A stretch of 35,091 nt of DNA from Alphaproteobacteria bacterium (GTDB taxonomy: Bacteria; Pseudomonadota; Alphaproteobacteria; Rhodospirillales; Magnetovibrionaceae). The stretch's first letter is position 1. The number at the start of each line of letters is the position of its first letter. Under the pieces are notes generated by a model. It made no database searches. It saw only the letters and a list, made by a program, of their open reading frames with translations, and was not told where the DNA came from. The stretch lies in NCBI GenBank assembly GCA_015231605.1, contig JADGBG010000021.1, forward strand, positions 1 to 35,091, given 5' to 3'. The position numbers were made by a program, and so were the translations under genes. Below are positions 1,363 through 14,854 of the stretch, one piece after another.

Positions 1363-2661
1363 TCAGGACAGGCCTTGCTCGTCGCGCAGCTGCTTGCGGC
1401 GCAGAAGCGCGGCCAAGGCGCTCAGCACCGACACCGCCATCAGATACCCAAACCCGATGTGCGGGTACGAGTGGGTGGAGAACTGCGCCACCTTGCCCTG
1501 GCCGAACACGGTCGGCATGAACGGCTTCAGCGTGAACGCGCCCATGTCGTTGAGGCTGTGTCCATACCACCACAGCCACGACGCGTATTCCACGATGAAG
1601 AACACCGGCAACAGGGCGGGCACGATGATCATCAGCCAGAACACCGGGCCACTGTTCTTGCGCGCGCCCCACATCAACAGCAGCATCGCGCCGATCAGGC
1701 CCCAGAACACCACCGTGCCGGCGGTCTTCATGGTGGCGACCAACGGGCCGATTTCGTCGGGGTTGTTGAACCAACGGCCCAGGCTCTTGTCGTAGTGCCA
1801 GAACACCATCTGGTGACCGCTGCCGTTCCACTCATCCATATCGGTCAGCCCGCGCGCCTTGTCGGCCTCGTAGGCGCCCTTGAGGATATGGATATTGAGC
1901 TCCTTGCCCGCTTCGCCGCTTTGCTTGGCTTCGGCGAGGATTTCCTTGAGGCTCTTGGCGGTCTTGGCAACGCCGCTACCCGAATGGAGCTTCGCCAGCG
2001 CCTCGCTGAGGCTGGCCTGCCCGGCCTGTTCCACCGTCTGGCGGACCTGCTCGGCGCTCACCATGCTGCTTTCGCCGCTTTCGGTCAGCGATTTCTTGAG
2101 CTGGGCGATGATGGGGCTGAGCTCCTCGCCCTCTTCCTCTTGTCCCAGACCAAGCGACGTCACCATCGCCGCCAAATAGTCATTGCTTTGATACTTGAGG
2201 CCGTCGTTGCCGTAATAGGTCATGTACATCCAGGCGGCGACGCCGACGAAACCGACGCCCATGACGCCCAGGCGCACGCGCGGATTGAAGACCATGAAGC
2301 TGACGATCATCACGCCCAGCATGGACAGCAGGAACGGCGAGAACGCCTTTTCGATGACGCCGCCGGACGCAATGGGATACATGCCGACAAAGTGGTTGAT
2401 GGCGTCCATTTCGTGGACACAGTCGAGCGCCTCGGCCTCGAACTTTTCCTTGATGTCGAGCTTTTCGCAGCCGTTGAACACGCCGTTCATGTGGAAGTGG
2501 ATGCGCACCCCGTCGGGGAAGGCTTCGGGCGGGTAGTTGGGGGCCTTGAGCGCCACCCACCAGGTTGGGGAAATGTAGATCAGGTACAGCAGAACCAACG
2601 CGGCGGCGAGCATCACCTTGATCACGGGGCCGCGGCTGTCTTGCTTGGCGAATGCGTTCAT
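1363..2661 (-). CDS. nosB: NosB-like membrane protein of clade II nos clusters
   Basis: A 432-residue membrane protein with an N-terminal TM (about 15-32), further TM pairs near 105-150 and at least three TM segments in the C-terminal third. Between them lies a soluble, helix-prone, Glu/Lys/Ser-rich stretch (about 165-290) with a conserved-looking GHQMVFWHYDKSLGRWFNN. The position between the nosZ/cytochrome genes and nosD matches nosB, the membrane protein of unknown function that marks clade II nos clusters. The start is supported by AGGAG ten nt upstream. The assignment rests mainly on gene order and topology. No heme or classical metal motif is visible, so its biochemical role is unknown. 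Confidence 0.72.
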   Translation of the reverse strand: MNAFAKQDSRGPVIKVMLAAALVLLYLIYISPTWWVALKAPNYPPEAFPDGVRIHFHMNGVFNGCEKLDIKEKFEAEALDCVHEMDAINHFVGMYPIASGGVIEKAFSPFLLSMLGVMIVSFMVFNPRVRLGVMGVGFVGVAAWMYMTYYGNDGLKYQSNDYLAAMVTSLGLGQEEEGEELSPIIAQLKKSLTESGESSMVSAEQVRQTVEQAGQASLSEALAKLHSGSGVAKTAKSLKEILAEAKQSGEAGKELNIHILKGAYEADKARGLTDMDEWNGSGHQMVFWHYDKSLGRWFNNPDEIGPLVATMKTAGTVVFWGLIGAMLLLMWGARKNSGPVFWLMIIVPALLPVFFIVEYASWLWWYGHSLNDMGAFTLKPFMPTVFGQGKVAQFSTHSYPHIGFGYLMAVSVLSALAALLRRKQLRDEQGLS

Positions 2662-4292: not shown

Positions 4293-6587
4293 TTATTGCT
4301 TCACCTCGACCGCGCCGTTCTGTTCCAGGAAGGTCTTGGCGCGCAGACCGATGTCGGCCGCCTTAACCTGATATTGGAACCACTGCTGCGCCCACAGGGT
4401 GGCGTTTTGCCAATCCTGCTTGGTCGCGAAGTCTTCGGACTTCTTCTTCGCGTCGGCGGCGAAGTTCAGCTGGTCGGTGGCGTCCTCGACGAGGGCGACG
4501 ACCGGCGGGAAGTCCTTGAAGTTACGCGACGTGATGAACGCAACCACGCTGTCGATGACCGCCTGGGTGTCGACGTTGGTCTTCACCTGCTTGTCATAGT
4601 CGCCCTGGGCATAGGCCTGGCCTTCGGAGAACTTGGCTTCGGTCGCCTTCATCCCCTTCGGACGGACCAGCATGTAACCCTGCATTTCCAGGTGCAGCGC
4701 CGAGCAGAACTCCGTGCAGTAGTACGGGAACACGCCCGGACGGTCGGCCTTGAAGGTCGCCGAAACGGTCTTGCCGGGTTCGGCCGACAGGTTGACGTTG
4801 TACTCGTACATCGCGAAGCCGTGGGTTTCGTCTTCCGCGCGTTCCAGGTTGGTCAGGTGGAAGCTGACGGTTTCGCCTTCTTCGACCTCGACGATTTCCG
4901 GGGTGATGTGCGAACGGATCAGCGTACCGTAAACATGGACGACGCCATCCTTACGTTCGATCTTTTCGCGGCCCGGACGGGTCTTGTACGGAGATTCGGA
5001 GTCGGAACGGCTGTCCCAACCCACCTTGTAGCGGACGTGCGGCTTCAGCTTCTCGGCGTTGATGGCGACGGCGTAGTGCGGTTCGCCCAACGGCAGGGGC
5101 ATGTCGTACAGCAGCTCCATCTTGTCGCCGCTGATGTCGATCAACTGGTGATTCTGCGGATGCAGGGGGCCGACCGGGTTGAAGCGGTCGATCGCCAGCT
5201 TGTTCAGAGACACCAGATACTTGCCATCCGGAGACACGGAATCGCCTTCCATCGACATCAGGTGACCGATGTTGTAGTGGATGGAGATCTTGTCCAGAAC
5301 CTTGCCTTCGCAGTAGTCCCACTTGGTGACCTGGCTGTCCACGTAGATGGAGGTGTAGGCCACGCAGGGCTTGGAATCGTACTGCGTGTGAAGGGGGCCG
5401 AGGCCGACTTCAAGCTGCAGGTGCAGGGCTTTCTTCAGGTCCAGGATGGGAATGCCATAGGGATCCTTGCCGGCGAAGTCCTTGTTCTTGACCAGCGTCA
5501 TCAGCTTTTCGAACGAATACACCGAAGCGTGCGTGTCCAGCTTGCCGGCCACGATGATCTTGGTGCCGTCCGGGGTCACGTCGACGCCGTGCGGGGACTT
5601 CGGTTCCGGAACCAGGAACAGGATGCCTTCCTTGATCGCGGTGTCCATGGTGATGACGTCATGCCCGTTGATCTTGGTGGTCTTGCCGGCCTTGAACAAT
5701 TCGGCGGCCTTCTTCCAGTTGATCATGTGCATGTAGTCGGTGTCCTTCTGCGAGCACCCGGCTTCGAACGGCGGACGGCCGCTTTCGATGCCGCCGACGT
5801 AACGTTCGGTGCAGAAGGAGTTGGTGAACGACCAGCCGTCGGACGGGCCCTTGCCGAAGTCGGAAAGGTCCTGGCTGTAGGGCGGCAGTTCGATGGAGAA
5901 GGACTGCGACTGGTCGATGCGGCCCTTGGCGTTGTCGAACTTCCAGTAGGTCACCGCGCCGCGGTATTTTTCGTTGAACTGCGACAGCGGCACGTATTCG
6001 TTGGTGAGCGGCGCCGCGTACTGGGAGGCTTCGATCACGTAGTCCGTGTTCGGCGTGACGAACGCACCGCCGTGTTCGGATTTCATGATCGGGTTGACGA
6101 CGATCTGCTTCGTTTCGAAGTCGGCCAGGTCGATGACCGCGATGCGCGGGTTGGCCTTGTCGTTGATGAACAGATAGCGGCCGTCATAGTCGCCGTTGGT
6201 TTCGGAAATCGCCGGGTGGTGCGTGTCGCCGAAGGTGATGTCCTTGCCGTTGATGCGGCCCTGGGCCAACACGGCCTTGGATTCGTCGTCGAAGCCATAG
6301 CCCTGCCACGGTTCCGGCGTGAACACGGCCACGTACTTCAGGATGCGCATCGACGGGATGCCATAGACGATGATCTGACCGCTCTGGCCGCCGGAGCTGA
6401 ACGCGACGAACTCGTCGCGACCACCGGTCGGCACATACGTCTTAGCCGCCGCCAGGACATCCTTCTGGGTGAGACCACGTTCTTTCATGATCCCTTCCAA
6501 GGTGTCCTGAGCCGACACGCTGGCCGCGGACAGGCCAAGGCCCACCGCCGCCGCAAAGCCCATGGCCTTGCCTAATCGCATACTCAT
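4293..6587 (-). CDS. nosZ: Nitrous-oxide reductase, clade II (Sec-dependent)
   Basis: A 764-residue periplasmic N2O reductase (N2O to N2). The signal peptide (1-26, ending SVSAQ) has no twin-arginine motif, a mark of clade II enzymes. The beta-propeller carries the CuZ histidine motifs: DTHHP (121-125), EHGG (His172), SPHGVD (His333), PLHTQ (His400), GHLM (His442) and EPHY (His503). The cupredoxin domain has the CuA ligands His589 (DETHG) and Cys624, Cys628, His632 and Met635 in CTEFCSALHLEM. The clade II form of DxxHHP and TEFCSALHLEMQGY fits better than clade I. About 120 residues follow the CuA domain; they look helical and contain no CxxCH, unlike NosZ proteins with a cytochrome c tail. 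GAGG seven nt before the ATG fixes the start. It heads the operon nosZ-cyt-cyt-nosB-nosD. Confidence 0.97.
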   Translation of the reverse strand: MSMRLGKAMGFAAAVGLGLSAASVSAQDTLEGIMKERGLTQKDVLAAAKTYVPTGGRDEFVAFSSGGQSGQIIVYGIPSMRILKYVAVFTPEPWQGYGFDDESKAVLAQGRINGKDITFGDTHHPAISETNGDYDGRYLFINDKANPRIAVIDLADFETKQIVVNPIMKSEHGGAFVTPNTDYVIEASQYAAPLTNEYVPLSQFNEKYRGAVTYWKFDNAKGRIDQSQSFSIELPPYSQDLSDFGKGPSDGWSFTNSFCTERYVGGIESGRPPFEAGCSQKDTDYMHMINWKKAAELFKAGKTTKINGHDVITMDTAIKEGILFLVPEPKSPHGVDVTPDGTKIIVAGKLDTHASVYSFEKLMTLVKNKDFAGKDPYGIPILDLKKALHLQLEVGLGPLHTQYDSKPCVAYTSIYVDSQVTKWDYCEGKVLDKISIHYNIGHLMSMEGDSVSPDGKYLVSLNKLAIDRFNPVGPLHPQNHQLIDISGDKMELLYDMPLPLGEPHYAVAINAEKLKPHVRYKVGWDSRSDSESPYKTRPGREKIERKDGVVHVYGTLIRSHITPEIVEVEEGETVSFHLTNLERAEDETHGFAMYEYNVNLSAEPGKTVSATFKADRPGVFPYYCTEFCSALHLEMQGYMLVRPKGMKATEAKFSEGQAYAQGDYDKQVKTNVDTQAVIDSVVAFITSRNFKDFPPVVALVEDATDQLNFAADAKKKSEDFATKQDWQNATLWAQQWFQYQVKAADIGLRAKTFLEQNGAVEVKQ

Positions 6588-6748: not shown

Positions 6749-6768
6749 GCCTTGACGCCCGTCAAGGC
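6749..6768. promoter_or_regulatory. FNR/CRP-family (NnrR/FNR-like) operator between nosZ and a DUF2946 gene
   Basis: A perfect TTGAC-N4-GTCAA lies at 6752-6765, and its symmetry extends to 9-bp arms GCCTTGACG and CGTCAAGGC. This matches the TTG-N8-CAA core bound by FNR, NnrR or Dnr-type regulators that switch denitrification genes on at low oxygen or with NO. Centred at 6758.5, it would place a class II nosZ transcription start near 6717 (about 130 nt of leader), with a weak -10 near CAAACT. It is only 16 bp upstream of the first possible start of the divergent gene. Which regulator binds is not decidable from the site. Confidence 0.7.
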
Positions 6769-6781
6769 GAACCGCTTTTGA

Positions 6782-7231
6782 ATGCGTCATAGTCAAAGCA
6801 TGGAGACGTCAAGGGAACGCAAGCACGATGCGGCCAAGGGCCGGGCATTCCGCAACCGGAAGGCCCTGGCGTCGTGGCTCGCGCTCTACGGCCTGCTGTT
6901 GCAGGCCCTGGTTCCCGTTGGACAGGCCATACCGATGGCCCGCGCCGTGCCGAACGGCGGGGCGCAGTACCTGTTCATCTGTTCGGCGCTCAACTCGATT
7001 TCAGAGAGCCGCTCGCAGGCCCCGAACTCTCAGCAAGACCGCACGCCATCTTCCCAATGCAGCGTGTGCCTGAGCTTCGGCCTCGGCGGTTCCTTGCTCG
7101 CGCCGCCCACGGTGGCGCTGACTTTGCCGACCACGATCAACCCCCTGGAGGGCCCGGCCACGGTGGTCACGGTTCTGACCAGCCGGACACTGGCGGTCAA
7201 CCGGGCGCGCGCGCCGCCCCTCTCCGCCTGA
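6782..7231 (+). CDS. DUF2946-family exported protein, divergent from nosZ
   Basis: 149 residues: a basic N-terminus, one hydrophobic segment (about residues 30-48, WLALYGLLLQALVPVGQA), then a short domain with one Cys in LFICSA and a CSVC pair, ending in RAPPL. The LLQALVPVGQA signal, the central C...CxxC and the terminal RAPP are the usual features of DUF2946, small exported proteins often found near copper and heavy-metal genes. The function is not established. An alternative start is the ATG at 6800; neither start has a clear ribosome site. It is transcribed away from nosZ across a shared FNR-like operator and ends in a strong terminator. A distant paralogue is encoded at 13135-13539. Confidence 0.75.
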   Translation: MRHSQSMETSRERKHDAAKGRAFRNRKALASWLALYGLLLQALVPVGQAIPMARAVPNGGAQYLFICSALNSISESRSQAPNSQQDRTPSSQCSVCLSFGLGGSLLAPPTVALTLPTTINPLEGPATVVTVLTSRTLAVNRARAPPLSA

Positions 7232-7292: not shown

Positions 7293-7823
7293 TCATCGTG
7301 GTTTCGCGCGCGGAACCAGAACCTCGAACTCGTCGGTCTGCAATTCGTCCCCTTCCCAGCCGATCATGCAATTTTGGCCACGACTCATGCCGCCGTGCAC
7401 GCCACCTTCGTACGCGCCCCGGCACATGTACACCACGGGGCCGTGGCCGCCGTCGACGCGAAAGGCGTTTTCGGGAATCACGCCGGGCGTGGCCGCGACC
7501 CAATGGCCGTCGAAACGTCCCGCCAGGGCCTGAAAGGCGCTGTAGGGCCGTTCCATGCCGCCGCTGCCGACATAACAATACCGGCCAAACGGACCTATTC
7601 GCTTGCCCGCCTCGACGTCGCGCAGATGCACGATGCGGCAGCCGTAAATCCCTTCCCCGTCCTTGGTCCGACCGACCTGAAAGGGGTCCTTGACGGCCTC
7701 TTGCGTGATGTCCACCCAGCGCAGGCCCAACCCCGTGTCCAAGGGCGGCAAGGCCCAGGCGGCGGCGGCGGCGAACACGGTCAGGGCGGCGGCGGCGAAT
7801 GGCAGTCGCTTCGGAAGACGCAT
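7293..7823 (-). CDS. Exported protein with DM9 (DUF3421)-like repeat
   Basis: 176 residues with a signal peptide ending AAAAAWA. The C-terminal half reads HWVAATPGVIPENAF, then GG, YMCRGAYEGGVHGG, CMIGWEGDEL and FEVLVPR. This follows the DM9 repeat pattern (W-x-P-x-x-A, GG, Y-x-x-R-a-x-y, GK/G, y-x-x-x-GxE, yEVL). An incomplete first repeat (GRYCYVGSGGMERPY) precedes it. It has four cysteines after the signal peptide. DM9 domains are best known as carbohydrate-binding modules in animals; a role in a bacterial nos cluster is unknown. The ATG at 7823 with AGGGA six nt upstream is preferred to the TTG at 7829. It is the last gene of the SCO/ABC operon, 16 nt after SCO-2. The family call is from pattern only. 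Confidence 0.55.
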   Translation of the reverse strand: MRLPKRLPFAAAALTVFAAAAAWALPPLDTGLGLRWVDITQEAVKDPFQVGRTKDGEGIYGCRIVHLRDVEAGKRIGPFGRYCYVGSGGMERPYSAFQALAGRFDGHWVAATPGVIPENAFRVDGGHGPVVYMCRGAYEGGVHGGMSRGQNCMIGWEGDELQTDEFEVLVPRAKPR

Positions 7824-7839
7824 GGACAATCCCTTTCGT

Positions 7840-8448
7840 TCATTTCAGTTTCGCCTGGACGTCGGCGGCGATGGTCTGGGCCGGAGTCCCATACGCCCAC
7901 CGCCCCAGGAAACGGCCGTCCGGCCCCATGAAGATGGCGGAGGAGGAATGGTCCACCTCGTAATCGCTCGCCGAGGAACCGGCCATGACCTTGTCGTAGC
8001 GGATCTTATAGGCGCTGGCCGCCGCCGCGATGTTGGCCTTGGGGCCCGTCAAACCGACGATGCGGGGATGGAAGTGGGCCACGTACTCCTTCATGCGCTC
8101 GGGCGTGTCGCGATCGGGATCGACGGTGATGAAGGCCACGCGCACGTTCTCCGCGTCTGGGCCCAACACTTCCAAGACCTCGGTGAAGGTTTGCAGACTC
8201 GTCGGGCAGATGTCCGGACAATGGGTGTAACCAAAATACACGATCAGGTGCGAGCCCAGAAAGCTTTCGTTGGTGGCGAGCTCGCCGTTGTGATCGGTCA
8301 GGACGAATGTGCGGGGCTGGTCGTCGGCGACCGGTTCGCCGCCGCCACGGATGATCTTCGCGCCCGCGAGAACGGGCGGGGACGCGAACGCGAACAGCCC
8401 CAAGGCCAATAACGCCGCCACGGCGCGCGTTGCAATCGTGCGGGGCAT
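7840..8448 (-). CDS. SCO1/SenC/PrrC-type copper chaperone (second of pair)
   Basis: 202 residues with a signal peptide (to about 28, SPPVLAG) and a thioredoxin-like fold. The copper and redox ligands are Cys77 and Cys81 in THCPDICP and His167 in VDHSSS, with the usual DPDRDTPE and FHPRIVGLTG motifs. SCO proteins bind Cu(I)/Cu(II) and insert copper into CuA-type sites or keep their cysteines reduced. NosZ has a CuA site, and SCO proteins have been implicated in its assembly in other bacteria. The start codon is one base after the stop of the upstream SCO gene, with AAGGAGG eight nt before it, so the two are translationally coupled. Confidence 0.93.
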   Translation of the reverse strand: MPRTIATRAVAALLALGLFAFASPPVLAGAKIIRGGGEPVADDQPRTFVLTDHNGELATNESFLGSHLIVYFGYTHCPDICPTSLQTFTEVLEVLGPDAENVRVAFITVDPDRDTPERMKEYVAHFHPRIVGLTGPKANIAAAASAYKIRYDKVMAGSSASDYEVDHSSSAIFMGPDGRFLGRWAYGTPAQTIAADVQAKLK

Positions 8449-8449
8449 G

Positions 8450-9079
8450 TCATCGGCCTCCTTGCCGTGGGGCGCCCGGGGACACCAGTTCCGCCAGCTT
8501 TTGGGCGATCATTTCACTGGTCGCCGCCGGCGTAAAGCGGGCCAGATACTTTCCGTCCGGCCCCATGAGGAACAACAGCGAGGTGTGATCCATGGTGTAG
8601 GCGTCGTTGTCATCCGCTTTCTGGGCATAGATATTATAGGCCCGGGTGACGCTGCGCACCTGATCCAGGCTTCCCGTCAGGCCCACCAGGGCCGGGTGAA
8701 AATGCACGACGTAATCGGCCATGGCCCGCGGGCTGTCGCGTTCCGGATCGACCGAAATCATGATCGGCGCGATCCGCGCCACGACGGGTTCGGGCAGCAG
8801 ATCCAGGGCATCGCTGACGATTTGCAGGCTGCTGGGACAGATGTCGGGGCAATGGGTGTATCCGAAGTACACCAACGGATAGCGCCCCAGGAAATCCTTG
8901 TCCGTGCGGGTCTGGCCCAGGTGGTCCACCAGTTCGAAAGCGCCGCCGACGCTGGTGTCCTCGACCCCCAGGCGTCCGCCGTTCATGAACCGCCCCGCGG
9001 CCGCCCAGGCGACCATGGCCAGCACGGCGGCGATGGCCAGCCACCGCATCCAGGGATCATTTTTCTTGATGTTCTTCAT
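8450..9079 (-). CDS. SCO1/SenC-type copper chaperone, membrane-anchored (first of pair)
   Basis: 209 residues with an uncleaved-looking N-terminal TM (about 11-29, WLAIAAVLAMVAWAAA) after a basic MKNIKK. The SCO motifs are complete: Cys77 and Cys81 in THCPDICP, His165 in MDHTSL, DPERDSP and FHPALVGLTG. An upstream in-frame extension overlaps the membrane-protein gene at 9103 and is not credible, so the ATG at 9079 is used. The predicted topology (anchor, periplasmic domain) differs from the second SCO, which has a signal peptide ending in a clear cleavage-type site. The two share the CPDICP core but diverge elsewhere, suggesting distinct steps in Cu delivery rather than redundancy. Confidence 0.93.
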   Translation of the reverse strand: MKNIKKNDPWMRWLAIAAVLAMVAWAAAGRFMNGGRLGVEDTSVGGAFELVDHLGQTRTDKDFLGRYPLVYFGYTHCPDICPSSLQIVSDALDLLPEPVVARIAPIMISVDPERDSPRAMADYVVHFHPALVGLTGSLDQVRSVTRAYNIYAQKADDNDAYTMDHTSLLFLMGPDGKYLARFTPAATSEMIAQKLAELVSPGAPRQGGR

Positions 9080-9102
9080 GTGCGTTTGGTTCCCGTGACG
9101 TG

Positions 9103-10104
9103 TTAAGTCCCGAACAAGATCAGGCCGGATGACAAAATGGCGTATGCGCATGCCGCGCCGAACCCAGTCAGGCAAACCATGGACGTCGTCACCAGCCGAC
9201 GCGACACGCGGGGGGCGATCTCCGCCAAACTCGGCGCGCCGGCGAACACGGCAATGGGACCGCCCCCCATGCCCAACACGGTTCCGGCGAACAGCGGAAC
9301 GTAAAGCCAATACCCGAAATAGCCGTATTCCGGCTTGAGGAGACAGAACGGACAGTGATGATTGGGGTGTTCGTAAACATAAAGCGACACCACGGAAACG
9401 ATCCCCGCGATGGCGGCGACGAACACCAGCACGCTGACCGCGCCATACAGCATGCCGCCTTGCCCGGTCCTGGCGTGAACCGCCGCGACCACGCCGGCCA
9501 GGGCCAGGGACCCGAACAGCAGGACCAGCGCCGCCTTTTCGTCCAACCCCGCCAATTCCGCCGACACCCCGGTGGCGTCCTGCGTGAACAACTTGCCGCA
9601 GCACGACGTGATCACCTCCGGATCGAGATCGAGGAAATAGGCCGCCTGCACCCCGGCGGCGGCCAGCACCACCGGCGCGATGACGATCAGCATGGCGTAC
9701 TTGACGCGGATCAGGGGATAGTCGTAGCCCATGTTGTCGACATGGTTGACGATCAGCCACACGCTGGCCAGGAAGAACACCGCGATCTTGAGGATCAGCG
9801 CCGGAAAGCCGAAGGCGTTGGCGTTCAACGTCCCCACCGCGCACATCGCGCCGACGAACTGGGCCGACATCCGGTCCGCGTTGAACACGAACAACAGCAG
9901 CGACAACAACTCCGCCACCATGACGAACGCCAACAACACGGAAAACAGATAGGTCCGCCGCTCCAACACCAACTGCCCGTGGCGTCCACTGGCGATGTCC
10001 CACCGCCGCAGCACCCGCACGCCGAACGCAGCCCCGGCCAGAACCATGACGCTGGATAGGGCCGATCCGATCAATAGGGCGAGAATGGTGGGGTGAAAGA
10101 TCAC
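9103..10104 (-). CDS. Eight-TM membrane protein with CC and HHCPFC motifs, unknown function
   Basis: 333 residues with about eight predicted TM helices. Notable non-membrane motifs are FVGAMCAVGTLNANAFGF between TM2 and TM3, ITSCCGKLF after TM4, and NHHCPFCLLKPEYGYFGYW between TM6 and TM7. Clustered Cys and His on loops suggest metal or disulfide chemistry, by inference only. I recognise it as the kind of conserved membrane protein that accompanies SCO and NosL genes but cannot name a characterised family. Its ATG overlaps the ATPase stop codon (ATGA, 10101-10104). SCO-1 starts 23 nt after its stop. The coupling implies that it works with the ABC pair and the SCO proteins. Confidence 0.8.
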   Translation of the reverse strand: MIFHPTILALLIGSALSSVMVLAGAAFGVRVLRRWDIASGRHGQLVLERRTYLFSVLLAFVMVAELLSLLLFVFNADRMSAQFVGAMCAVGTLNANAFGFPALILKIAVFFLASVWLIVNHVDNMGYDYPLIRVKYAMLIVIAPVVLAAAGVQAAYFLDLDPEVITSCCGKLFTQDATGVSAELAGLDEKAALVLLFGSLALAGVVAAVHARTGQGGMLYGAVSVLVFVAAIAGIVSVVSLYVYEHPNHHCPFCLLKPEYGYFGYWLYVPLFAGTVLGMGGGPIAVFAGAPSLAEIAPRVSRRLVTTSMVCLTGFGAACAYAILSSGLILFGT

Positions 10105-10805
10105 GCCGTCCCCTCCCCGCCCGGATCGACACCGGAGTCCACGATGCGTCCGTCGCGCATGGCGACGACGGCGTCCACCAGATCCGCCTGCCAGATCATC
10201 GGGTCGTGGCTGGTCATGACGACGGTTTTGCCGCGCCCGCGCAATTCGCGGACGATGTCGAGGAATTCAAGAGACAGCGCGGTGTCCAGATTGGCGGTCG
10301 GCTCGTCGGCCACCAAAATCGGCGGATCGTTGATCAGCGCGCGCGCGATGGCCACGCGCTGCGCCTCGCCGCCCGACAGGTATTGCACCTCGGTCCCGGC
10401 CTTGTGCGCGATGCGCAGCGTCTCCAACAGTTCCACCGCCCGGGCATTCAGTTCGCGCCCCGGCCCGCCCAGCGGATAGGCCGGGATCATCACGTTTTCC
10501 AGGACCGAAAGCCCGTGGATCAGGTTGAAACTCTGAAACACGAAGCCGAACACTTCGCGCCGCATGTGGGTGAGAAAGCGTTCCGGAAGGCTGGTGACCT
10601 CGCGCCCGTTGACGTGGATGCGACCACTGGACGGTCGCGCCAGCCCGCCGATCAGGGTGAGCAGCGTGGTCTTGCCCGAACCGCTGGGTCCGCGCAGCAC
10701 GGTGACCCGGTCGGCGTCGATCTTGAGATCGACGCCGTGGATGGCGGTGTATTCGTTGTCCGCCCCTTCGTTGAAGGTCTTGGTGATGTCTTGCAGGACG
10801 ATCAT
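10101..10805 (-). CDS. ABC transporter ATPase, LolD/MacB type
   Basis: 234 residues. Walker A is GPSGSGKTT (about 39-47), the Q-loop is FVFQSFNL, the signature is LSGGEAQR, Walker B is ILVADEPTANLD and the switch His is in TSHD. The spacing and the N-terminal IHGVDLKI place it with LolD/FtsE/MacB ATPases, which pair with FtsX-fold permeases, not with the NosF type. It begins three nt after the permease stop and overlaps the next gene by ATGA. MacB-type systems usually do mechanical work across the periplasm (extraction of lipoproteins or substrates) rather than pumping ions through the membrane. In this context it may act on a NosZ maturation factor, by inference. Confidence 0.93.
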   Translation of the reverse strand: MIVLQDITKTFNEGADNEYTAIHGVDLKIDADRVTVLRGPSGSGKTTLLTLIGGLARPSSGRIHVNGREVTSLPERFLTHMRREVFGFVFQSFNLIHGLSVLENVMIPAYPLGGPGRELNARAVELLETLRIAHKAGTEVQYLSGGEAQRVAIARALINDPPILVADEPTANLDTALSLEFLDIVRELRGRGKTVVMTSHDPMIWQADLVDAVVAMRDGRIVDSGVDPGGEGTA

Positions 10806-10808
10806 GGC

Positions 10809-11954
10809 TCACCTCATGACCGCGTCGGGGTCGGTGATGGCGGCCCGCCAGATCGGCACCAGGGTCGCGGCGATGTACGGCGCCACGGTGAAGAACAACA
10901 GCGTCGCCACCTGCACCCCGTCCACCTGAGGCGTCAGCTCGAAACGCGGATAGAGAACCGCCCAACCCTTGAGAACCGGCTCCAACAATCCCGCCGAGAA
11001 ATAAAACACGTGGATGTACGCCAGCACGTACCCCGTCAGAAACGCGCCCAGCGACACCACGGCGCCTTCCCACATTTTCATCTTGATGACGTCGGACGTT
11101 TCCCAGCCCACGGCCTTGAGAATGCCGATTTCGCGCCGCTCCTCGGCGCTCAGCCCCGATGCTTTTTCCCAGGCGAAAATGACGAACGCGAAAATCGCCC
11201 CGCCCAGAAGAGCCAGCAAGATCCCTTCGCGCCAGTTGAACACCGAATCGTAGGTCCGCAGAATGTCGCCGCGCGTCACCACGCGGCAATCGGGCAAGGC
11301 GTTGGAAATTTTTTCCGCCACCTTCGCCACTTCGCGGGGATTGCGCACCTTCAGCACGATGTCGGTATGGACGTCCGGGGCCACGTCGAAGAAGGCGCGG
11401 AAGTCGGATTCGGCCATCAGCACCAAGTCCGTCGTGACGATTTCGGAATCCGCGTCCAACACGTCTTTCAGCTTCAGCTTGAACAGCTTGGCCCGCGGCG
11501 ACAGCAAGAACAGGTATTTGCCGGGAACCACGCCGCGTGATCGCGCCACCCCGGCCCCGGCGACGGTTTCGCCGACATCCGGCGCGGCCCCGTACCGGTC
11601 GCCGTCGGGAACCATCAGCGTATAGTTCGCGCCGTTGGCGGTGTCGTAGAAATAGCCCCACAACCGTCCCCGCACATCGCGCGCGCCGCGAATGTCCGCG
11701 ATCGCATCGACATAGGACGCCGGGATCAGGTCGTGGCGCCCCATGGAGATGCGCTGCACGGTGATTTCCGGCGCGCCGTCCAAAAGCACCATGGCTTCCT
11801 GCCTAAGTGCGTGGGTGAACAGCATCACCGTCGCCAGAACGAACACGATCAGGGTATAGACCGCCAGCAGGGCGAAATTCCGCGCGGCCCGGCGCAGCAG
11901 GGACGCAACGGTGTAATCGATCAGACGTTTTTGCCGTCTCAACCAAACCGTCAT
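10809..11954 (-). CDS. FtsX/MacB-type ABC permease
   Basis: 381 residues with one TM near the N-terminus (about 28-48) and a large periplasmic domain (about 50-260). Three TM segments then occupy the C-terminal third, bearing the FtsX-fold cytoplasmic signature ERREIGILKAVGW before the third TM. Partner of the ATPase at 10101. It overlaps the preceding small gene by ATGA (11951-11954). The topology is that of LolC/LolE/MacB, not the six-TM NosY, so calling it nosY would be wrong. The substrate is unknown. Linkage to two SCO proteins and NosL suggests copper-site assembly or lipoprotein handling. Confidence 0.9.
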   Translation of the reverse strand: MTVWLRRQKRLIDYTVASLLRRAARNFALLAVYTLIVFVLATVMLFTHALRQEAMVLLDGAPEITVQRISMGRHDLIPASYVDAIADIRGARDVRGRLWGYFYDTANGANYTLMVPDGDRYGAAPDVGETVAGAGVARSRGVVPGKYLFLLSPRAKLFKLKLKDVLDADSEIVTTDLVLMAESDFRAFFDVAPDVHTDIVLKVRNPREVAKVAEKISNALPDCRVVTRGDILRTYDSVFNWREGILLALLGGAIFAFVIFAWEKASGLSAEERREIGILKAVGWETSDVIKMKMWEGAVVSLGAFLTGYVLAYIHVFYFSAGLLEPVLKGWAVLYPRFELTPQVDGVQVATLLFFTVAPYIAATLVPIWRAAITDPDAVMR

Positions 11955-12286
11955 GGCTGTTCTCCAATGATCGAGCCCGCCCCCGGATGGATGCGCCGCG
12001 CCCCGATGAGCGAACCGCTCGGAAAATGGTCCAGGGACATCGGATGGTCCTGAAACGCGGAATGCAGGTCCGATTGACTGACGTGGCGGGTATAGCGGGC
12101 CTCGGTGAACAGCGCGAGATCCGTCAATTCCAGAACCCGCGCCAGCCGCGCGCGCTCGCCCTGGCGGATCGCGGCTTCGTCGGCGCGCAACCGCACGTCC
12201 AGCGCCGTCCAGGCCACACCGGCCACGCCGAGGGCGAACAGCACGCCCGCCGCGCCGGCCTTTCCGATTGTGTCACTCATCGCCAT
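11951..12286 (-). CDS. Small membrane-anchored protein coupled to the ABC permease
   Basis: 111 residues with one TM helix at 9-30 (AGAAGVLFALGVAGVAWTAL), a charged helical segment with Arg/Glu, then a conserved-looking periplasmic tail containing LALFTEARYTRHVSQSD, LHSAFQDHPMSLDHFPSGS and a terminal PGAGSIIGEQP. The tail has four histidines near a Met, but I see no recognised metal motif. GGGAG nine nt upstream supports the ATG. The stop overlaps the permease start, so it is probably a dedicated partner of the FtsX/ATPase pair. I do not recognise a characterised family. Confidence 0.75.
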   Translation of the reverse strand: MAMSDTIGKAGAAGVLFALGVAGVAWTALDVRLRADEAAIRQGERARLARVLELTDLALFTEARYTRHVSQSDLHSAFQDHPMSLDHFPSGSLIGARRIHPGAGSIIGEQP

Positions 12287-12325
12287 GGACGCGTTCTCCC
12301 ATCCGTCACCACCGGAACAAAGGTC

Positions 12326-12354
12326 GACGGGACGCCGGGTCGCGGCGTCCCGTC
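12326..12354 (-). other. Strong intergenic hairpin downstream of nosL-1
   Basis: GACGGGACGCCG and CGGCGTCCCGTC form a perfect 12-bp stem with a 5-nt loop in the 74-nt gap between nosL-1 and the small membrane-protein gene. It lacks a proper T-run on the minus strand (only CCTTTGTT), so it may attenuate or protect the nosL message rather than end transcription fully. Confidence 0.6.
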
Positions 12355-12360
12355 CGCGCC

Positions 12361-13032
12361 TTATTTGTCCATGGGTTTGCCGCCGTGCTCCATGCCCTGG
12401 GCCTTGCCCTTGGCTTCGCGGCGCTTGGCTTCACGCCGCTCCCGCAGCATGACGGTGTCGGCCGCCATGTCGGCGTAGGCCGCGGTGACGGCGGCGTCGA
12501 AGTTGGTCACCTCGCCGCCCGCAGCGTCGGCCTTGGCCTTGTCGGCATAGGCGAATTTGCTGCGCTTGGTCATGGTGCCCATCTTGCCCGGATCGATCAC
12601 GTAATGCGCCTGATCCACGTTGACCAGCGGCTTGACCGGAGCGTCCGATCCGGCGTCCCCGGCGTAGATCGCCTTGGGCACGCGGTCGAGGTTGAGGCTC
12701 AGGCTGATCGCCGCGCAGTGGATCGAGCACGTCCCGTCCACCAGATCGTCGGAATAATGGATCAGGTGGCGGGTGTGGCTGAACTTGGTGCGGTTCATGC
12801 CGCAATACGGGCAGCTCGGATATTTTTCCAGCTCGTTTTCCAGCGGATTGGGGTCCTTCGCGCCCTTGGGCATGAACTGCAACGGGGTGCCGTCGGTGTT
12901 GGTCACCTCTCCCTGCTTTTCCACCCATTCCCAGGGCATGATCATTTTGCCCTCGGCGCGGGCCGGGCGAAGACCGGGAACGGCCAGCAAGCCGCCGGCG
13001 GCGACGCTCATCAACAATTGCCTGCGATTCAT
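12361..13032 (-). CDS. nosL: NosL-family copper chaperone with Tat-like signal (nosL-1)
   Basis: 223 residues. The N-terminus MNRRQLLMSVAAGG resembles a twin-arginine signal followed by AxA-type cleavage (PARAE, about 26), where many NosL proteins are lipoproteins. The core NosL motif is CPYCGM (74-79), followed by HTRHLIHYSDD and CSIHC (102-106), all plausible Cu(I) ligands. The C-terminus is unusual: a Lys/Arg/Glu-rich helix and a Met/His tail (GMEHGGKPMDK). NosL binds Cu(I) and passes it to apo-NosZ or NosD. GGAG eight nt upstream fixes the start. It lies between a DUF2946 gene and the ABC/SCO operon. Confidence 0.85.
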   Translation of the reverse strand: MNRRQLLMSVAAGGLLAVPGLRPARAEGKMIMPWEWVEKQGEVTNTDGTPLQFMPKGAKDPNPLENELEKYPSCPYCGMNRTKFSHTRHLIHYSDDLVDGTCSIHCAAISLSLNLDRVPKAIYAGDAGSDAPVKPLVNVDQAHYVIDPGKMGTMTKRSKFAYADKAKADAAGGEVTNFDAAVTAAYADMAADTVMLRERREAKRREAKGKAQGMEHGGKPMDK

Positions 13033-13071
13033 GGTGTATTCTCCTGCTTTTCACTTGATGGCGTGACGCGA

Positions 13072-13109
13072 CCCCGCACGCGGGGCACGCGCCCACAAAG
13101 CCGTGCCCC
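13072..13109 (-). other. Two overlapping, mutually exclusive hairpins upstream of nosL-1
   Basis: GGGGCACG (13082-13089) can pair with CGTGCCCC (13102-13109). The same GGGG end can instead pair within CCCCGC-AC-GCGGGG (13072-13085). The two cannot form together. They lie in the 102-bp gap between the DUF2946 gene and nosL-1. No T-run follows. Confidence 0.35.
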
Positions 13110-13134
13110 AGGGGCGGCGGCATGGAAGATGGGA

Positions 13135-13539
13135 TCAGGTGAAAAGCGGCGGAGCCCGCGACGAGAATGAGAACCCGTCGGCAACGGCCAAAAGCGTCCG
13201 CGTCTCAAGCGGCGTGGGCAATGCCGCGACGACTTCAGCTCCGGACGGATTGACCGAAGCCTCCGGCACGTCCAGGCACAGGGAATGCACGGGACAATAG
13301 GGACACGGCGCGTCGGGGTCCGGCAACGCACCGCCCTCGGCGTCCAGGACAAGGGTCCGCAAGCCGTTGGCCGTGCATACGATCAGGGCCTGCGGAGAGG
13401 TCCCGTCGGCCTCGGCGGAGGCGGCGAGGCCCACGGGCAACAGGGCCTGCGTGATCAGCAGGACCGCGCCGAGCCACGCCGAAACGGTTCGCCGGGACGA
13501 ATGATGCAAAAGGTCTGTCAGGAACCGTGCCGGGGTCAC
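13135..13539 (-). CDS. DUF2946-family exported protein within the nosL region
   Basis: About 134 residues from the GTG at 13539 (GGAG eight nt upstream), or 141 from an ATG at 13560 with only a distant AGGGAAG. One hydrophobic segment (AWLGAVLLITQALLPVGLA) precedes a cysteine in LIVCTANG and a cluster CPYCPVHSLCL, and it ends in RAPPLFT. The same LQ/TQALLPVG signal, central cysteines and RAPP end are found in the protein at 6782-7231, so they are paralogues of DUF2946, here with a richer Cys/His centre. It sits between two nosL genes in the same direction, suggesting metal handling. The function is unproven. Confidence 0.72.
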   Translation of the reverse strand: MTPARFLTDLLHHSSRRTVSAWLGAVLLITQALLPVGLAASAEADGTSPQALIVCTANGLRTLVLDAEGGALPDPDAPCPYCPVHSLCLDVPEASVNPSGAEVVAALPTPLETRTLLAVADGFSFSSRAPPLFT

Positions 13540-13630
13540 GCACTCAACTCCACATGCCATCGCATGGCTTCCCTGACGCTAACACCTTCCGCCGGGCGAA
13601 ACAACGGCGCTTGGCTCGCGCGGCGACGGG

Positions 13631-14143
13631 TCATTCGAACACCCCCCGGTCCAGCATTGCGGGAAGCCCGGCCGTCACGTCCGGAAACTCCAGGACGCGC
13701 ACGCCGCGATGGTCGGCCAGGAACGCTTCGGCGTCGGCGCGGCTGGCGAACGGCACCAGTTCATGGCCCATGGGGCCGGTGACGTCCGAACCGACCACGT
13801 AGAACGCGCCCTTGGCGTCGATCTTGCGCAGATCGTAGTATTCCGTCACGCCGATGCGCTCGATGTCCCCGGGCGTGTGCCCGTCGCCGTATTTCGCCAT
13901 GTCGAACAGAAATTTGAACATGTCCTTCGCGCCGTCGAAGTGATGGGCGTGACCGTCCTTGTAGACCACCGTGGCCACCCATTCGCGGTACTTCGCCACC
14001 AACATGCCGCAGACCGGGCAGGCGTCCATCACGCGGGGCGCCGGGACTTGGATGTCCAACTCGGCCGCCCGCGCGAACGGGGCGTTCATCACCACCAACG
14101 CGGCAATCACCGCCGATACAAAAAGCCTGCGCCTGACAAACAT
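13631..14143 (-). CDS. nosL: NosL-family copper chaperone (nosL-2)
   Basis: 170 residues with a basic signal (MFVRRRLF, hydrophobic to about 26, FARAAE) and CPVCGM at 42-47, followed by YREWVATVVYKDGHAHHFDGAKDMFKF, the usual NosL sequence. The mid-region KIDAKGAFYVVGSDVTGPMG and VPFASRADAEAF also fit NosL/TlpA-like NosL domains. It is closer to the textbook NosL than nosL-1, which has extra CSIHC ligands and a longer tail. First gene of the minus-strand set and divergent from a c'-type cytochrome gene. Confidence 0.92.
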   Translation of the reverse strand: MFVRRRLFVSAVIAALVVMNAPFARAAELDIQVPAPRVMDACPVCGMLVAKYREWVATVVYKDGHAHHFDGAKDMFKFLFDMAKYGDGHTPGDIERIGVTEYYDLRKIDAKGAFYVVGSDVTGPMGHELVPFASRADAEAFLADHRGVRVLEFPDVTAGLPAMLDRGVFE

Positions 14144-14281: not shown

Positions 14282-14854
14282 ATGTCACGAAATTTGAAAC
14301 ACACCGTCCTCGCAGCGCTGGTGCTGGGCGCGGCCTGGGCGCACGGTGTTCCCGCCGCCGCGTCGGATGCGCGGGAATTGATCGCGCTTCCCGATCAGGT
14401 CCGCGACGGTTTCCTGACGGAGATGCGCGGACACATGGGCAACCTGGACGACATTCTCGCGGCCCTGGCCGCAGGCGACTTCAAACAGGCCGCGAATATC
14501 GCCGACATCCGCATGGATTTCGGCCACGTCATGTGGGAAGGCATGATGGCCCAAGGCATGACGGCCGACGAAGCGCTGGCGATGAAGGAAAAGATGCGCG
14601 CCCAAGGGATGGGCATGGGACAGGGCATGGGACAGGGACGCGGACAAGGCCGGGGCATGGGCATGGGCCGTTTCATGCCCGATGATTTCCGTGCCATGGG
14701 CTCGGGGCTCCACGAAGCCGCCGCCGCCTTCGCCGCCCGCGCCCGCGCCGCCGAAACCCCGCCGACGGCGAAGGACTTCCAGGACACGATGGACGCCTTG
14801 CAAGGGGTGACCGCCGTGTGCCGGGGCTGCCACGAAACCTATCGCGTGCGATAA
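14282..14854 (+). CDS. Cytochrome c'-like exported protein with Met/Gly-rich insert
   Basis: 190 residues with a signal peptide (to about 28, VPAAAS), a helical N-terminal half, and a C-terminal CRGCH (near 182-186) followed by ETYRVR, the c'/c556 arrangement with heme at the C-terminus. An N-terminal-region Met (FLTEMRGHM) could be an axial ligand. An unusual insert of about 30 residues (KMRAQGMGMGQGMGQG and on to GRFMPDD) is rich in Met, Gly, Gln and Arg and comes from a 12-bp DNA repeat. Met-rich stretches can bind Cu(I); that is inference here. It is divergent from nosL-2. Proteins of the c' family can bind NO or transfer electrons, both plausible in denitrification. Confidence 0.8.
   Translation: MSRNLKHTVLAALVLGAAWAHGVPAAASDARELIALPDQVRDGFLTEMRGHMGNLDDILAALAAGDFKQAANIADIRMDFGHVMWEGMMAQGMTADEALAMKEKMRAQGMGMGQGMGQGRGQGRGMGMGRFMPDDFRAMGSGLHEAAAAFAARARAAETPPTAKDFQDTMDALQGVTAVCRGCHETYRVR
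14611..14646 (+). repeat. 12-bp tandem repeat inside the cytochrome gene
   Basis: GGGCATGGGACA occurs twice exactly (14611-14622 and 14623-14634), followed by a third degenerate copy GGGACGCGGACA. It encodes the GMGQ-type insert, so copy-number change would keep the frame. Confidence 0.8.

Follow-up and report, generated by a model that had tools for sequence, protein, structure and literature searches.

A conserved copper-associated operon with an FtsX-type ABC pair, two unnamed protein families and a putatively leader-controlled NosL

Organization of the gene run

The contig JADGBG010000021.1 from an alphaproteobacterium of the Magnetovibrionaceae (assembly GCA_015231605.1), analysed here over positions 1–35,091 and referred to as the window, contains a run of minus-strand genes for NosL-family proteins, SCO proteins and an ATP-binding cassette (ABC) pair of the FtsX type. 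The core of the run is a module of four proteins: a 111-amino-acid (111-aa) protein, a permease, an ATPase and an eight-helix membrane protein, here called TM8. As judged by sequence comparison, the module forms part of a conserved copper-associated operon that includes two unnamed protein families and a module-specific NosL predicted to be under the control of a leader. The eight genes listed in a preliminary description of this locus, from NosLb through a DM9 protein (13032–7293), were all found upstream of a clade II nosZ gene, with families assigned from Pfam and TIGR04246. Among the window proteins, NosL, FtsX, ABC_tran, SCO1-SenC (twice) and DM9 each exceed the Pfam cut-off.

The run reaches further upstream than first described. 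It begins with NosLa (13631–14143; this and the following features are on the minus strand), a second and better-scoring NosL (PF05573; 110 bits, E 1e-31, as compared with 35 bits for NosLb and a gathering cut-off of 24). A leader open reading frame (ORF) of the DUF2946 family (13135–13560) and a gap (13033–13134) separate NosLa from NosLb (12361–13032). The interval between NosLb and the 111-aa gene contains a strong terminator-like hairpin (12326–12354) of 12 bp, 10 of them G-C, which may divide the module into two transcripts or attenuate a single one. The core then follows as the 111-aa protein (11951–12286), the permease (10809–11954), the ATPase (10101–10805) and TM8 (9103–10104, with a GTG start). 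Next come SCO1 (8450–9079; Pfam E 8e-47) and SCO2 (7840–8448; E 9e-48), both of which belong to the SCO1/SenC family (PF02630) and carry the CxxxC motif as CPDIC together with the distal His. Four tight junctions had been reported, as ATGA overlaps or gaps of 1–3 nt, and this spacing is correct: an ATGA overlap joins the 111-aa and permease genes, and gaps of 3 nt (permease/ATPase) and 1 nt (SCO1/SCO2) are present, but the ATPase/TM8 overlap reads GTGA.

The FtsX-type ABC pair

The permease contains the Pfam FtsX domain (PF02687). By sequence it is nearest to LolC/E, YtrF, LolF and MacB (PDB LolC, E 2e-9), by fold to LolE (Foldseek 2e-15), LolC, MacB and HrtB, and it probably acts as a homodimer. 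The ATPase falls in the FtsE/LolD/MacB class, and its Walker A and B, signature and H-loop motifs are all intact. An FtsX-fold permease with a periplasmic domain, paired with a LolD-class ATPase, defines the type VII ABC superfamily (FtsX/LolCE/MacB-like), and the original assignment as an FtsX-type pair is thus borne out by both sequence and fold. The pair nevertheless forms a separate type VII branch, because it misses every equivalog cut-off widely: lolCE (38 of 362 bits), LolD (178 of 308), FtsE (185 of 265) and MacB (permease, 14 of 966). Permease fold and ATPase class are shared with LolCDE, MacB, HrtBA and FtsEX; the module differs from these in its low scores, its other partners and its single permease encoded separately from the ATPase.

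The resemblance to LolC/E, MacB and HrtB in fold and sequence raises the alternative of an exporter of the LolCDE/HrtBA/MacB kind, for lipoproteins, heme or peptides, residing within a copper operon. We consider this highly unlikely, as the scores lie far under the LolCE, LolD, MacB and FtsE cut-offs and the conserved NosLa and NosLb partners have no lipobox. A Lol-like sorting of NosL is unlikely on the same lipobox evidence.

TM8 and the 111-aa protein

An AlphaFold model from 53 sequences (predicted local distance difference test score 92, predicted template modelling score 0.90) contains eight helices, in agreement with the earlier description of TM8 as an 8-TM protein. The motifs GAMC, VITxCC and HHCPF, invariant in the alignment of 53, sit in the loops between helices 2–3, 4–5 and 6–7 of this model and so occupy one membrane face. 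This Cys/His face is predicted to be periplasmic, because acidic residues are found here and positive charges in the opposite loops. There are no matches to TM8 in Pfam or NCBIfam, no PDB relative by sequence and no Foldseek PDB match below E 0.15; matches from VIA reach Z scores up to 13 and are confined to half-length helix bundles. Two four-helix halves can be picked out by eye, but an internal duplication finds no support in the sequence (hhalign probability 0.3 percent) and was rejected.

The cysteines of TM8 (CC and CPFC) could also belong to a thiol/redox relay for keeping copper chaperones in the reduced state, in which TM8 would exchange disulfides and the ABC pair would act as regulator; a TlpA-like thiol partner is present in 55/87 loci and a DsbD_2 membrane protein in 34/87. 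This arrangement seems distinctly unlikely. Unlike in a catalytic CxxC, the second cysteine of CPFC (C254) is replaced by Asp in several relatives, so that HHCPFC does not amount to a strict CxxC redox pair, and no relationship of TM8 to DsbB or VKOR was detected by Foldseek or by VIA, whose matches span only half of the protein.

The 111-aa family is defined by a single N-terminal helix and a conserved tail, LTDxxLFTEARYxRHxSxADL...FQDxP...HFPxGxL (alignment of 16), and matches no Pfam family.

None of the 53 TM8 members matches the FtrD-like profile PF10080 at E 0.1, the family to which Campylobacter 1651 presumably belongs. The Campylobacter FTR1-P19-1651..1656 iron uptake operon (PMC6083913) resembles the module in combining a polytopic metal-linked membrane protein, ABC permease(s), an ATPase and thioredoxin-like proteins, but it has two permeases rather than one, is regulated by iron through a Fur box and contains FTR1 and P19 instead of NosL and SCO. 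No function has been assigned to its ABC part either (PMC6083913).

Conservation and distribution of the module

The 111-aa protein, permease, ATPase and TM8 constitute a real conserved unit. A species-wide scan of 84,980 species genomes yielded 304 TM8 relatives, from which 80 loci were retained; plasmids and viral contigs contained no TM8 relatives. TM8 is rare in the class sample (1/190 genomes) and the phylum sample (7/348), and its carriers include Rhodocyclaceae, Gallionellaceae, Rhodobacteraceae, Sedimenticola and tubeworm symbionts, Accumulibacter, Azospira and Magnetospirillum, among others. Where at least 5 kb is available on both sides (full-flank loci), the permease is kept in 50/50, the ATPase in 49/50 and the 111-aa protein in 46/50, and NosLa or NosLb is present in 43/50. 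Pairwise distances between core parts correlate strongly across loci (TM8–permease r 0.91, 0/499 permutations), a correlation to which shared ancestry contributes.

Clustering of 87 neighbourhoods gives a general gene order of [SCO] - 111-aa - permease - ATPase - TM8 - [TlpA-like] - [Met-rich small protein] - [HMA-like] - [Cu+ P-type ATPase] - [DsbD_2] - NosLb - NosLa, and the Rhodobacterales have leader - NosLb - NosLa - 111-aa - permease - ATPase - TM8. SCO proteins accompany the module in 19 loci. The DM9-repeat secreted protein that ends the run in the window (7293–7823, minus strand; Pfam DM9 E 2e-17; ATG start, with a TTG at 7829 as an alternative) was rejected as a module member, as DM9 is found in 0/87 relatives.

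Several further features of these neighbourhoods were observed. The small membrane proteins with a Met-rich start (L045:11813-12181, L042:12555-12896 and other c9 members) share a conserved KDFxLQQKExLxDL tail, adjoin the HMA-like protein and the Cu+ ATPase and have no Pfam family. In Gallionellaceae and their kin (L020, L025, L026, L029 and L022), genes for ModE, ModA, ModB, ModC and a ModD-like protein lead straight into the module upstream of the 111-aa gene, and in the same-order relative G240 a NifQ gene (L003:9712-10308, plus strand) directly follows TM8. Such molybdenum-gene neighbours are clade-limited, and we judged a molybdenum link to be that of a passenger. One TM8 copy (G728:C119:2734-3723), from a genome without NosZ, has a single in-frame TGA and is perhaps decaying.

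NosL proteins and the link to copper

NosLb carries the motifs CxYCGM and CS[IL]HC and has a twin-arginine start, from which export by the twin-arginine translocation (Tat) pathway is predicted. All 15 NosLb relatives match NosL. In the phylum sample of 348 genomes, the six close TM8 carriers, and no others, exceed 270 bits with the NosLb profile, and scores elsewhere stay below 40 bits (Fisher P 4e-13); NosLb is therefore a module-specific NosL branch. NosLa, a periplasmic NosL-family protein, is found in 57/87 TM8 loci. A lipobox occurs in 0/57 NosLa, 2/56 NosLb and 43/55 TlpA-like partners, and neither NosL protein of the window has one, so that they fall outside the NosL lipoproteins. NosL itself is a known copper chaperone of CuZ (PMC6530538).

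The neighbours of the module point strongly to copper, as the preliminary description had supposed: besides NosL and SCO they include a Cu+-ATPase, an OprC-like receptor and a CruR-type leader. The P-type ATPases encoded beside it contain GMTCASC, CPC, YN..xIP and MSSxS, a Cu+ signature. In genome G467 the adjoining TonB receptor has OprC as its sole PDB match and retains the copper motif ACPNxM, and receptors related to it occur at two further loci. At least one copper-protein gene is present in 49/50 full-flank loci, and the exception (L080) has an adjoining nosZ.

These neighbours also bring up copper uptake into the cytoplasm, in which an outer-membrane receptor would be followed by NosL proteins as periplasmic carriers and by TM8 and the ABC pair as the importer. 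The OprC-like receptor would fit at one locus, and leaders of the CruR type stand elsewhere in front of genes for copper acquisition (PMC9426467). The commonest transporter partner, however, is a P1B-type Cu+ exporter. FtsX-type permeases are, to our knowledge, not known as importers, and uptake appears quite unlikely.

A separate observation concerns a NosLb-like paralogue that lies beside a siderophore-type TonB receptor, FecR and an extracytoplasmic function sigma factor (L035:15113-19637, L085:11016-15524 and L074), a hint of NosL-family proteins in the vicinity of iron uptake.

A CruR/CutF-type leader

DUF2946 is the CruR/CutF family. In Bordetella CruR a CXXC motif senses copper and an RAPP end, 45 residues away, stalls the ribosome (PMC9426467), and Rhodobacter capsulatus CutF frees a masked cutO start (PMC9973294). 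The window leader, which scores over the Pfam DUF2946 cut-off, has the same architecture (CPYC-45-RAPP), with a spacing equal to that of CruR. CruR-like ORFs with spacings of 44–50 aa precede the module in the window and at 19 further loci; matches in L021 and L026, being weak or out of frame, were left out of this count. The leader ends 102 nt before NosLb, and in the window NosLa stands further upstream.

In the predicted RNA fold of the window, the NosLb ribosome-binding site, GTGAAAAGCAGGAG, lies in the leader–NosLb gap and is paired with the leader's APPLFT codons and stop. Across the 16 loci in which the leader immediately precedes NosLb, with NosLb starts set by the Tat signal, the cognate leader/NosLb duplex has a mean energy of -14.7 kcal/mol, as compared with -10.3 for mismatched leader/start pairs, and 0/50,000 permutations reach the cognate value. 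The helix sequences diverge (CCUCUCUGUGAU/AUCACAGAGAGG in L069, CCUUUUGAUCUU/AAGAUCAAAAGG in L059); because the helices differ between loci, the pairing has been kept despite sequence change. It is not seen in about five loci. Taken as a whole, the leader gap has an unexceptional folding energy (z -1.5), and only the specific pairing stands out.

The window leader thus shares with CruR and CutF the DUF2946 family, the CXXC motif, an RAPP or PP end, a position directly before the controlled gene and a long gap, and the masked downstream ribosome-binding site is like that of CutF/cutO. Ribosome stalling at RAPP would lift the masking of NosLb. If the leader behaved like CruR, the module would be switched on at scarce copper; if like CutF, at plentiful copper. 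The controlled genes differ, being here NosLb and the FtsX-type ABC/TM8 module, which does not appear among the contexts consulted in those two papers.

The window also contains an orphan second ORF of this type (6782–7231, plus strand; CSVC, 46 aa, RAPP; Pfam DUF2946 E 9e-7), which is divergent from nosZ and has no obvious following gene on its own strand.

Relation to NosZ and CuA enzymes

The nosZ gene downstream of the module (4293–6587, minus strand) encodes a Sec-type clade II enzyme (TIGR04246, 899 bits against a cut-off of 625) and is a possible client. An exact FNR/NnrR-type box, TTGACGCCCGTCAA, lies upstream of it at 6752–6765, where 0.06 would be expected by chance. Taken with the leader, this suggests separate control, of nosZ by oxygen or nitric oxide and of the module by copper.

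The preliminary description proposed a delivery machine for NosZ or another CuA enzyme. NosZ is enriched among carriers, in counts that ignore kinship and include several draft metagenome-assembled genomes. In the phylum sample it is present in 6/6 close carriers (three clade II, three clade I) as compared with 55/348 genomes overall (Fisher P 1e-5), and in the order sample of G467 clade II NosZ is present in 3/4 carriers, with 22 NosZ genomes among 160. Across the named carriers, 31/49 have NosZ, 27 of them clade II (one split gene counted). Together with the directly adjoining nosZ in the window and in L080, and with the known role of NosL as the CuZ chaperone (PMC6530538), these counts would fit a dedicated NosZ maturation machine, acting on CuZ or CuA.

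Dedication to NosZ is nevertheless unlikely. The gene lies within about 10 kb in only 2/88 loci, and 18/49 carrier genomes have no NosZ at all, Thioclava and Rhodobacter isolates among them; conversely, the module is missing from 49/55 NosZ genomes of the phylum sample. Dedication to a CuA enzyme fares no better, since a COX2/CuA-domain match is absent in 10 of the 18 NosZ-free carriers, including the isolate Rhodobacter aestuarii. Both the NosZ-only and the CuA-only readings were rejected as general explanations.

The genome of the window also has the ordinary system. Contig 82 carries genes for a ferredoxin-type NosG, NosF, NosL and NosY (PF12679), and a PF12679 permease lies near nosZ in most NosZ genomes checked; the module is therefore no substitute for NosFY. 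In both systems an ABC pair works alongside a copper chaperone of the NosL family located outside the membrane, but NosFY is of the ABC-2 type, whereas the module permease is FtsX (PF02687) rather than PF12679 and is joined by non-lipoprotein NosL proteins without NosD. The statement that NosFY is not of the module's type accordingly holds.

A model for copper handling at the periplasmic face

With somewhat better than an even chance, we regard the run as an operon that responds to copper and encodes an ATP-driven machine for handling copper on the periplasmic side of the inner membrane, with low-oxygen respiration enzymes, NosZ among them, as clients. TM8 would hold Cu(I) by means of Cys and His residues in its periplasmic loops (C88, C168, C169, H249, H250 and C251). 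ATP hydrolysis would move the periplasmic domain of the permease, with the 111-aa protein as adaptor, and this motion would drive Cu(I) between TM8 and NosLb/NosLa, in either direction of flow. NosLb and NosLa would then load copper enzymes of low-oxygen respiration. In short, the inferred activity is a transfer of copper on the periplasmic side, powered by ATP, for which NosZ would be one client among several.

A number of observations weigh against this model. NosLa and NosLb are absent from 7/50 full-flank loci, most loci lack the Cu-ATPase and most lack SCO, and some also lie beside molybdate or siderophore genes. In the window, the hairpin parts NosLb from the core genes. At least three relatives have Asp in place of C254 of TM8. 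Lipoproteins, heme, peptides and cell division are further known concerns of type VII ABC systems.

A bolder form of the copper-handling model, which we put forward tentatively and hold to be somewhat improbable, is a new class of ATP-powered copper relay. In it, a type VII ABC engine would act via the new TM8 family and the new 111-aa adaptor, either to load or to unload chaperones of the NosL type outside the cytoplasm, and a ribosome-stalling copper sensor would unmask the chaperone start. We know of no FtsX-type ABC engine that handles copper. A literature search on NosL with FtsX, LolD or MacB, and on nosZ with FtsX, outside of which subscription papers and preprints fell, returned no description of a system of this make-up, as the preliminary description had also stated.

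How periplasmic copper enzymes are fed in anaerobic respiration is only partly understood. The module offers concrete proteins (TM8, the 111-aa protein and NosLb) in the cultured nitrous oxide (N2O) reducers Azospira oryzae and Sulfurisoma, and it is also present in the NosZ-free relatives Thioclava and Rhodobacter aestuarii. A NosL gene alone is no sign of N2O reduction.

Additional features of the window

A cytochrome c'-like protein (14282–14854, plus strand) is encoded divergently from NosLa. The segment 29706–35083 holds ftsA and a Mur ligase, and in the Thioclava loci L051 and L054 ftsW, murG and murC lie directly downstream of the module; both copies are thus near cell-wall genes.

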